From: Acidilobaceae archaeon | Lineage (GTDB): Archaea > Thermoproteota > Thermoprotei_A > Sulfolobales > Acidilobaceae | Direction: 5' to 3' | Length of the DNA stretch: 64,000 bases | Assembly (NCBI GenBank): GCA_025058835.1 | Contig: JANXEI010000002.1 | Location: 62,001-126,000 of the forward strand | Shown here: positions 14,575-17,562 of the stretch, one piece after another | How the letters are laid out: each line of letters begins with the position of its first letter | How positions within the stretch are numbered: the stretch's first letter is position 1 | Program-made: the position numbers and the translations under genes | Notes under the pieces: generated by a model | Databases searched by the model: none | Told to the model about the DNA's origin: nothing | What the model saw: the letters and a program-made list of their open reading frames with translations, nothing else

Positions 14575-15201
14575 TCAGGCTAATATTCTGTCCATAACGT
14601 AAGAGGGAACGGAGGTGATCCACGACTTAGCCCTCCAGGAGGGGATGCCGAAGGAGGAGAGGAGGCCTATGACGGAGAGGGGGCTCCACAGCTCCTCTGC
14701 CGAGGAGGCATCGCTGGAGATCACGAGGTTCAGGTCGAGGGCGTGAGCCTTGTGGCTTACGTTATAGAGGAGGGAGAGTTGCCTCCCCCTCAGCTCGTTC
14801 AGGGAGAGCTCAAGGGCGCCCCACCCTCTGCTCTTGAAGAGCCTGGCCTCTGACTTGTCTATGAACTTCTCCACCTCCTGCTCTACTCTTATGATGTGAA
14901 CGCTCTTGCTTACGGAGGAGTAACGGAGGGCGTCGAGGCTCCTCGGCCTCACCGCCATAATAACTCCCCTCCTATGCGCCCTGTCGAGGGCCCTCCTCAC
15001 CTCTGCCCTCGTGGAGCCCTCTACGGTAACCCTAGCCACCACCTTCAGCCCCAGATCTTGGGCTGCCCTTGCCAGCTCCTCCCAGCTGAGCCCTTCTGAG
15101 AGCTCTAGCGAGAGGCGGGAGAACCTCAGCTCCCTTGCCCTCTTGAAGATCTCGAGGGCTGCATCGCGGTCCTTGGGCCTTACGGAGAGGTCTGCGTAGA
15201 T
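14575..15201 (-). CDS. rnp3: RNase P protein subunit 3 (Rpp30/Rnp3), start codon unclear (ATC?)
   Basis: This is the TIM-barrel RNase P subunit. The conserved N-terminus, YADLSVRPKDRDAALEIFKR, is encoded, but no ATG, GTG or TTG lies in frame before the GTG at 15042, which would remove 53 conserved residues. The family's first residue aligns with an ATC codon at 15201-15199, eight bases after GAGGTG. Initiation at ATC, or a sequence error there, would give 208 residues, a normal length. The frame stays open upstream through the overlapping COG1325 gene without any usual start codon nearby. Identity is firm; the 5' end is not. Confidence 0.87.
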   Translation of the reverse strand: MYADLSVRPKDRDAALEIFKRARELRFSRLSLELSEGLSWEELARAAQDLGLKVVARVTVEGSTRAEVRRALDRAHRRGVIMAVRPRSLDALRYSSVSKSVHIIRVEQEVEKFIDKSEARLFKSRGWGALELSLNELRGRQLSLLYNVSHKAHALDLNLVISSDASSAEELWSPLSVIGLLSSFGIPSWRAKSWITSVPSYVMDRILA

Positions 15202-15620
15202 TCCAGAGCCACCTCGTAGGCCCTCAGCGCCTCCTCCCTCCTGCCGGAGAAGGAGAAGCGCACCCGCACCACGTCGTCAGACTCGTCCAGCTGGAGCCTC
15301 CCCAGGAACGCCCCCTGCTTGCTCAACCTCAGGAACAGGTCCCCTCCCTTGTCGACCCTCGTGGCTAGAGTAGCTTTCAACTTTGCCCTGTCGAGGTCGT
15401 CGAGGCGAGAGATGAGGTACTTGAGGGCTACCTCTGCGCTTCCCCTAAGCGTCGCTGTGAAGATCTCTATTGGGTTGCCGTGGTGGCCCTCGAGGGTCTC
15501 CGCATTTATGATTACCTTCCCCCTCAGCTCCGGCGGGAAGACCTCGAGGAGCGCCCTCAGCACTCTCTCCCTGTTCTCAGTTGCATGAGCGTAAACCCTA
15601 GCCTCTACGGAGGAGATCAC
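15180..15620 (-). CDS. COG1325 predicted RNA-binding, exosome-associated protein
   Basis: A small protein of 146 residues from the family found between L15e and Rpp30 in archaeal exosome superoperons. It shows the AHATENRERVLRAL start, a GHHGNPIEIF motif and a KGGDLFLRLSKQGAFLG segment. The family is predicted to bind RNA; its role is unproven. It starts at GTG 15620 and overlaps the 5' end of rnp3 by 22 bases. Confidence 0.85.
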   Translation of the reverse strand: MISSVEARVYAHATENRERVLRALLEVFPPELRGKVIINAETLEGHHGNPIEIFTATLRGSAEVALKYLISRLDDLDRAKLKATLATRVDKGGDLFLRLSKQGAFLGRLQLDESDDVVRVRFSFSGRREEALRAYEVALESTQTSP

Positions 15621-16308: not shown

Positions 16309-17562
16309 CTAGCCTCCCTCTGGAGCCTTATAAGCTAGCCAACAGTTGTACCTCTCCCCCCTCTCCACGTCCCTGTTCACCACGCACCCAGGCCAGATCC
16401 AGGCATGAGATCCTATCTTCACTCCCGGCATTATGGAGACGTTTATGCCCGTCTTCGCGTAGCCTCCGATAAATGCGCCGAGCTTCCTGAGATCGCTGCT
16501 CACCCTTCCTCCCTTCACGTTCACCTTCACCGCCTCCCCGTCAAAGCGGAAGTTAGCCGTTATCGTCCCCGCTCCCAGGTTCACGTGCTCGCCCACCACG
16601 CTGTCCCCCACGTAGTTCAGGTGAGGAGCCTTCGAGCCCTCCATGATGAGGGAGGCCTTTACCTGAGAGAAGGCCCCTACGTGGGCCTCCTCGAGCATAA
16701 CGGTGTAAGGCCTGATGTGGGAGTGGGGGCCTACCTCAGCCCCTCTCCCTATGAAAGCAGGCCCCTCTACGACTGCAAAGGCCTTCACCTCAGCTCCCTC
16801 CTCCACGTAGACCTTCCCCTCTATCTCAGCCCTCGGGCTCACCTCCCCCTTCACCTCTCCCCTCAGCTCGTGCTCCAGGGCCATCCTGTTCACCAACAGC
16901 AGGTCCCAGGGCCTGCCCACGTCCCTCCACCCCTTCCCGAGGCTAGCCACTGCAACGCTCTCCCTCTGGGCCAGCAGGTTCAAGGCATCTGTCACCTCGT
17001 ACTCCCCTCGCGGTGAGGGCCTTAGCTCTCTCAGCAGCTCTAGGACCTCGTAGTCTAGCTTCAGTGCCCCGGCGAAGACCAGGTTGCCCGCCTCCTCCCC
17101 CTCCTTCGGTTTCTCCCTGACCCTCCTCAGCTCTCCCCTCTCCACCTCAACAGCGCCGTACTCCCAGGGCTTGTCGACTTCTGCAACGAGGAGGGACGGA
17201 GAGGGGAGGTTCGAGAGGATCCTGTAGCCCTCCTCCAGCATGAAGACGTCCGAGTAAACGATGGTATACTCCCCAGGCCCTCCGTGCTCCATTGACCTTG
17301 CTATGGCATGTCCTGTCCCCAGCTCCGCCCCCTGATCTACTACTTCCCCTCCCCCACAGCTCCTCACGGCCTTTTCCAGAGCCTCCTTCATGTAGCTGGC
17401 CACAACGATGATCCTGTCGAACTCCGCGTGCTGGCGCGCGAGCCTGAGATGTCTGCAGAGGAGAGGCTCCCCCAGAACGGGCATAAGGGGCTTAGGCCTC
17501 GTCTCTGAAAGAGGCCTAAGTCTCTCCCCCTTTCCTGCAGCTAGGAGGACTAGGAACCTCAA
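16309..17562 (-). CDS. Bifunctional sugar-1-phosphate nucleotidyltransferase / acetyltransferase (GlmU-like)
   Basis: The N-terminal half is a nucleotidyltransferase (LLAAGKGERLRPLSETRPKP at residue 7 on, a dNTP-binding GxG loop, plus VYSDVF). The C-terminal half is a left-handed beta-helix with hexapeptide repeats (GEHVNLGAGTITAN, YAKTGINVSIMPGVKIG). This matches archaeal enzymes such as ST0452 of Sulfolobus tokodaii, which make UDP-GlcNAc and related sugar nucleotides for protein glycosylation. Length is 417 residues; the start is TTG. It lies between L15e and S3Ae and probably shares their transcript. Confidence 0.9.
   Translation of the reverse strand: MRFLVLLAAGKGERLRPLSETRPKPLMPVLGEPLLCRHLRLARQHAEFDRIIVVASYMKEALEKAVRSCGGGEVVDQGAELGTGHAIARSMEHGGPGEYTIVYSDVFMLEEGYRILSNLPSPSLLVAEVDKPWEYGAVEVERGELRRVREKPKEGEEAGNLVFAGALKLDYEVLELLRELRPSPRGEYEVTDALNLLAQRESVAVASLGKGWRDVGRPWDLLLVNRMALEHELRGEVKGEVSPRAEIEGKVYVEEGAEVKAFAVVEGPAFIGRGAEVGPHSHIRPYTVMLEEAHVGAFSQVKASLIMEGSKAPHLNYVGDSVVGEHVNLGAGTITANFRFDGEAVKVNVKGGRVSSDLRKLGAFIGGYAKTGINVSIMPGVKIGSHAWIWPGCVVNRDVERGERYNCWLAYKAPEGG

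Follow-up and report, generated by a model that had tools for sequence, protein, structure and literature searches.

A probable AUC start codon in rnp3 of an Acidilobaceae archaeon, and recurrent absence of canonical start codons from this gene within the family

Introduction

Prokaryotic gene finders generally accept ATG, GTG and TTG as start codons. Escherichia coli infC and pcnB have AUU starts, and IF3, the product of infC, autoregulates its own gene. For Staphylococcus aureus, one report describes AUU or AUA starts with an extended Shine-Dalgarno (SD) sequence in infC, ccpN and cvfC1, and a reporter output of about 10% of that of AUG (PMC13009471). In a survey of start-codon switches covering over 68,000 ancestral starts, CUG or AUU is reported in only a handful of cases (PMC5622118). 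For archaea, 52% TTG, 28% ATG and 20% GTG starts are reported for Aeropyrum pernix (PMC5911459), and in Sulfolobus, aIF1 reportedly selects against non-canonical starts (PMC6237735, PMC8211752). Termination-reinitiation at overlapping genes has been described by Huber et al. (2019; PMC6728339). Among the titles and abstract openings searched, a scope outside which most subscription papers lie, none reports natural initiation at AUC, ACG or UUA in archaea.

Here we describe rnp3 in a stretch of 64,000 nucleotides from an Acidilobaceae archaeon (the window; contig JANXEI010000002.1, positions 62,001 to 126,000). Like E. coli infC and pcnB, it would be kept low by an inefficient codon; unlike the product of infC, Rnp3 is not known to take part in choosing start codons. 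With the S. aureus genes, as that report presents them, rnp3 shares a conserved non-canonical start, an unusually strong SD and an otherwise ordinary gene; it differs in its archaeal host, with aIF1/aIF2 instead of bacterial IF3 proofreading, in being an internal overlapping cistron, and in the occurrence of ATC, ATT, TTA, ACG and TTC in one gene (PMC13009471). An overlap of cistrons in which the upstream gene contains the SD is also found in the termination-reinitiation pairs reported in PMC6728339, but in contrast to the stop/start overlaps, such as AUGA, reported there, the stop of the upstream gene lies here 19 nt downstream of the proposed rnp3 start. Start choice is relaxed in A. pernix as well, presumably a member of the same archaeal family, whereas the three canonical codons only are reported for that organism (PMC5911459).

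Methods

The gene was searched in 98 related genomes, then in 48 members of the family (45 matched) and 214 genomes of the order (174 matched). A first scan of the genome contigs with a single protein as query gave no match. The start region was read in 44 of the 45 matched Acidilobaceae genomes, with G043 left out as a C-terminal fragment, and at 40 loci outside the family, selected for matches reaching near the N-terminus. The yardstick was the invariant Asp at position 4: any ATG, GTG or TTG located before it and after the closest in-frame stop was counted as a canonical start. The genome of the window is denoted G000.

Substitution rates (dN, dS) were estimated for codons 8-53, which lie where the overlap with the upstream gene ends or beyond that point. 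The tree of COG1325 and Rnp3 comprised 53 rows, with the Rnp3 part used from the Asp onward. For other genes, stop-to-stop frames were compared with one relative in a strict survey; this replaced a crude survey, which had flagged many overlaps and rRNA-antisense frames.

Results

The rnp3 frame is open on the minus strand from 15276 to its stop at 14575 (Table 1). Reading of this frame confirmed the preliminary description, which had stated that rnp3 lacks ATG, GTG and TTG at its conserved start and that GTG 15042 is the first usual start codon in frame; GTG 15039 is the next, and the closest relative, G003, shows the same absence. Equally correct were the coordinates given for ATC 15201, eight bases past GAGGTG (spacer GCTCTGGA, 8 nt) and within the overlap with the COG1325 gene. 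This overlap is 22 nt long and in different frames, the two genes are co-directional with the SD of rnp3 situated inside the COG1325 gene, and COG1325 is present at 96 of 97 rnp3 loci. Within the last 16 codons before Asp-4, ATC 15201 is the sole in-frame codon one base off ATG.

Table 1. Features of the rnp3 locus (window coordinates)
Feature	Position	Strand	Remark
TGA, nearest upstream stop in rnp3 frame	15277..15279	-	frame reading
rnp3, RNase P subunit p30, Rpp30 family, read from ATC	14575..15201	-	208 residues + stop
ATC, proposed non-canonical start codon of rnp3	15199..15201	-	8 nt past GAGGTG; also in G003
Shine-Dalgarno (SD) GAGGTG	15210..15215	-	complementary to 16S 3' end ATCACCTCC of same genome
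COG1325-type RNA-binding protein gene, upstream cistron	15180..15620	-	PF01877 114 bits, cut-off 26.9
GTG, first canonical start in rnp3 frame	15040..15042	-	start there deletes beta1-alpha1-beta2-alpha2

The protein read from 15201 matches the RNase P p30 profile (PF01876, 44.5 bits, cut-off 35), with the match beginning only at residue 42. A sequence search against the PDB gave no relative, and structural relatives came from the fold search alone: with the AlphaFold model (mean pLDDT 93; beta1 at residues 2-7), Foldseek placed chains of archaeal Rpp30 or of archaeal RNase P at ranks 1-7 (TMq 0.65-0.80), which supports a TIM-like barrel as in PH1877 and the archaeal RNase P structures. According to this model, the fold needs residues 1-53. 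That these residues are encoded, as had been proposed, is borne out by the invariance of D4, L5, S6 and P9 across 11 aligned sequences, with the Asp (in beta-strand 1) invariant in 29, and by purifying selection on codons 8-53 (G000/G003: dN 0.40, dS 1.12; G012/G031: dN 0.155, dS 0.56; G016/G025: dN 0.19, dS 0.82; control pair with ATG starts: dN 0.25, dS 1.11). Between G000 and G003, this N-terminal stretch shows lower conservation than the remainder of the gene, for which dN is 0.22 and dS 0.94. To judge from these substitution patterns, the N-terminus of Rnp3 is translated.

Initiation at GTG 15042 would yield a short Rnp3 from residue 54 and leave the upstream stretch untranslated or a relic. 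In its favor are the rank of this codon as the first canonical one in the frame and the absence of a profile match before residue 42, but purifying selection acts on codons 8-53 also where rnp3 has no canonical start, and the confidently predicted barrel would be stripped of beta1, alpha1, beta2 and alpha2. The codon moreover lacks conservation in G003 and G004, and its SD window reaches merely -4.7 kcal/mol. Being very unlikely on these grounds (lack of conservation, weak SD, selected N-terminus, loss of fold), this start was rejected.

Nine of the 44 family loci, that of the window included, have no canonical rnp3 start, in three genera, compared to 0 of 40 outside the family (Fisher p 0.003, for rows that are not independent). 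The check proposed in the preliminary description, comparison of the codon in close relatives, found ATC kept in G003 (67% identical), at the same place and with no canonical start until codon 38, which shows that the pattern did not arise by chance. Other non-canonical codons stand in further relatives. Their start regions read TAG AGG ATT AAA TTC ATA GAT in G004, TAA GCC TTA AGA ATA GGC TTT GCA GAC in G005, TGA GCG GCT TTC TAC ATA GAC in G012 and G031, and TGA TAC ACA ACG TTC xxx GAC in G016, G025 and G040. The stretch that is missing amounts to 3-6 codons inside or adjoining the COG1325 overlap. The tree requires three changes of start-codon state, and a single clade of all nine rows, a group defined by start codons and not by the tree, is rejected (AU p 1.5e-48). 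The G012-type pair falls within a genus that has two further members, both with TTG, and the genus of the window has two members with ATG at rnp3. By this reckoning, the canonical start was lost about three times independently in rnp3 of one family.

A sequencing or assembly error that conceals ATG or GTG would have to be considered, given that the non-canonical genomes with record titles are metagenome assemblies and that one has a stated coverage of just 2.2. Against it, the state is found in nine genomes with the rnp3 frame intact in all of them, ATC is common to two species, ACG to three and TTC to two while the codon differs between clades, and the stated coverage of the ATT contig (G004) is 294. 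A read correction at 15201, named earlier as the outcome that would overturn the ATC, is unlikely because relatives from other assemblies also have no canonical start. Error in a single assembly was rejected for the shared codons and the coverage of the ATT contig, and we give only a slight chance to error of any kind; the ATC is taken as real.

The 16S 3' end in the genome of the window is GGATCACCTCC. The SD duplex at ATC 15201 was calculated at -11.8 kcal/mol; no position among the 335 scanned upstream was as strong. At eight of the nine loci without canonical start, exact matching places a codon 7-8 nt from the SD register: ATC in G000, ATT in G004, TTA in G005, TTC in G012 and G031, and ACG in G016, G025 and G040. 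In G003, GGGGGG replaces GAGGTG; the same ATC register follows by alignment, with a weaker SD (-8.6; 14.9% of local positions equally strong). At eight of the nine loci, the SD ranks by strength in the top 3.5% of the 335 local positions, and 9 of 35 canonical family loci have an SD at 5% or less of local positions. The median duplex is -9.9 kcal/mol for the nine non-canonical loci vs -6.6 kcal/mol for the 35 canonical family members, with the best of the canonical starts taken per locus and related genomes pooled. In the two genera that have both states, the SD is stronger at the non-canonical loci (-10.2 vs -4.1 and -13.3 vs -6.2).

The assignment of codons in the nine loci leans on this spacing, and we infer the exact codon from it. 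The TTC of G012 and G031 is two bases off ATG, and an ATA further downstream is an alternative. In G005, the motif TTAA is one base off the TTGA start/stop overlap of relatives and may have arisen from it by a single G-to-A substitution, which would convert the rnp3 start from UUG to UUA and preserve termination of the upstream gene (TAA for TGA). The SD in relatives points to differing codons and positions (-3, -4 or -6 from the Asp), as would be expected if another codon than ATC 15201, or several, were used. For the window, we regard this as improbable, given the standard spacing of ATC 15201 and its uniqueness as a codon one base from ATG.

Translation by -1 ribosomal frameshifting from COG1325 would produce a COG1325-Rnp3 fusion, and the COG1325 frame is in the right phase for such a shift at nine of nine loci. 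The same phase is common at canonical loci, however, because NTGA overlaps produce it (4-nt overlap in 13 of 35 loci in the family and 18 of 39 outside). In G005, three sense codons only are open to a -1 shift, and in relatives with canonical starts COG1325 and rnp3 are separate genes. As the slippery X XXY YYZ heptamer occurs in none of the nine shift windows, frameshifting was rejected and is considered highly improbable.

The start-codon checkpoint factor aIF1 (PF01253) was found in 41 of 48 family genomes. It is present as usual in G000, so that its loss was rejected as the cause of non-canonical starts and no loosened factor was found. An unusual initiator tRNA was sought in 480 kb of G000, a minor part of the genome, where one tRNA with a CAT anticodon was seen and none was odd.

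The strict survey gave matches for 8 of 338 genes in G000, 2 of 96 in G003, 1 of 91 in G012 and 8 of 409 in G024, and for 0 of 186 in the outgroup segment G063. Gene names in this survey other than rnp3 were given from the protein sequences and are presumptive. Judged by eye, four matches in G000 are convincing (rnp3, radA, HAD-like, kinase-like), two are unclear (pheS-like, ksgA-like) and two are not convincing. Both matches in G003 hold (rnp3 and a nucleotidyltransferase with CTG), as does the one in G012, an SDR-like gene with CTG; rnp3 of G012 missed the length filter. Of those in G024, the uppS-like and mevalonate-kinase-like genes seem genuine, and for at least two of the remaining matches there is another explanation (a broken frame in a cbf5-like gene, and a gene fragment). 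Curated counts of G000, G003 and G012 taken together do not differ significantly from G063 (Fisher p 0.12). The survey is suggestive of non-canonical starts in other genes of these genomes.

The individual loci are as follows. The radA-like recombinase of G000 (G000:C22:215530-216489 (+), L108) has no ATG, GTG or TTG before the conserved LTDLPGVG motif, and CTG or ATC after GGTGA are candidate starts. The HAD-like gene (G000:C22:354685-355362 (-), L115) opens with TAG CTG AAG after GGAGGTG, and its first canonical start would cut off the DxD motif. In the pantoate/GHMP-kinase-like gene (G000:C22:279476-280342 (+)), GGGGTG is followed after 7 nt by ATA ATC, and the earliest canonical codon is a GTG situated 43 codons into the frame. 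The ksgA-like frame (G000:C22:390072-390878 (+), L117) lacks a canonical start over 75 codons; here, a GTGA overlap present in a different frame points rather to an indel. The nucleotidyltransferase gene of the window (16309-17562) has a TTG start at 17562, where its G003 ortholog (G003:C11:54898-56205 (+), L124) has CTG and no canonical start for the next 47 aligned residues. The uppS-like (G024:C1:1248286-1248945 (-)) and mevalonate-kinase-like (G024:C1:1427909-1428931 (-)) frames have a conserved N-terminus upstream of any canonical start.

Archaeal cbf5 genes carry a spliced mRNA intron. The frame of the cbf5-like gene of G024 (G024:C1:186141-186971 (-)) is lost near the N-terminus, presumably as expected for this intron. 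A spliced intron could likewise supply an upstream start codon to rnp3, mRNA introns presumably occurring in this archaeal group and the cbf5-like gene behaving as expected, but the few codons lacking at rnp3, in or beside the COG1325 overlap, speak against it and make it extremely unlikely.

Discussion

We consider it likely that translation of rnp3 begins at a non-canonical, near-cognate codon, most probably AUC 15201; initiation there would be directed by the SD and probably coupled to COG1325 translation. The earlier choice of ATC 15201 as the best candidate stands, because its SD spacing is right, it is one base from ATG and it is kept in G003. In the proposed mechanism, the SD GAGGUG, 8 nt upstream, would set the initiator tRNA on AUC 15201, where two of the three bases of the codon should pair with Met-tRNAi, and ribosomes already translating the overlapping COG1325 gene would probably supply the 30S subunit; such coupling fits the layout of the genes. 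Rnp3 would begin with Met, and initiation would proceed at a low rate, which would suit an enzyme subunit needed in few copies.

Several features of the infC/ccpN kind are found in rnp3: no canonical start, a strong and well-spaced SD (weaker in G003), and conservation of the odd codon. This kind is known from bacteria and is unusual in archaea and in its recurrence within one gene. About three independent losses of the canonical start, all in a single gene within one family, far exceed the frequency given in the start-codon survey (PMC5622118). Since three genera show this state, and with different codons, AUC appears as one outcome of a wider relaxation.

Tentatively, and as a possibility that we rate well below the initiation at AUC itself, the start of rnp3 and some other genes in Acidilobaceae may be set by the SD register together with ribosomes that come from the gene upstream, with the codon nearly irrelevant, such that AUC, AUU, UUA, UUC and ACG all serve. 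Start checking would then be loose enough for the codon to drift at a strong SD, and about 1-2% of genes in these genomes might be mis-annotated at their 5' end. Since gene finders take ATG, GTG and TTG, proteins like Rnp3 would be truncated or missed. As aIF1 is reported to select against non-canonical starts in Sulfolobus (PMC6237735, PMC8211752), rnp3 would be a natural substrate for testing the strictness of archaeal start selection. Together, these observations suggest that archaeal ribosomes are less strict on start codons than textbooks say.
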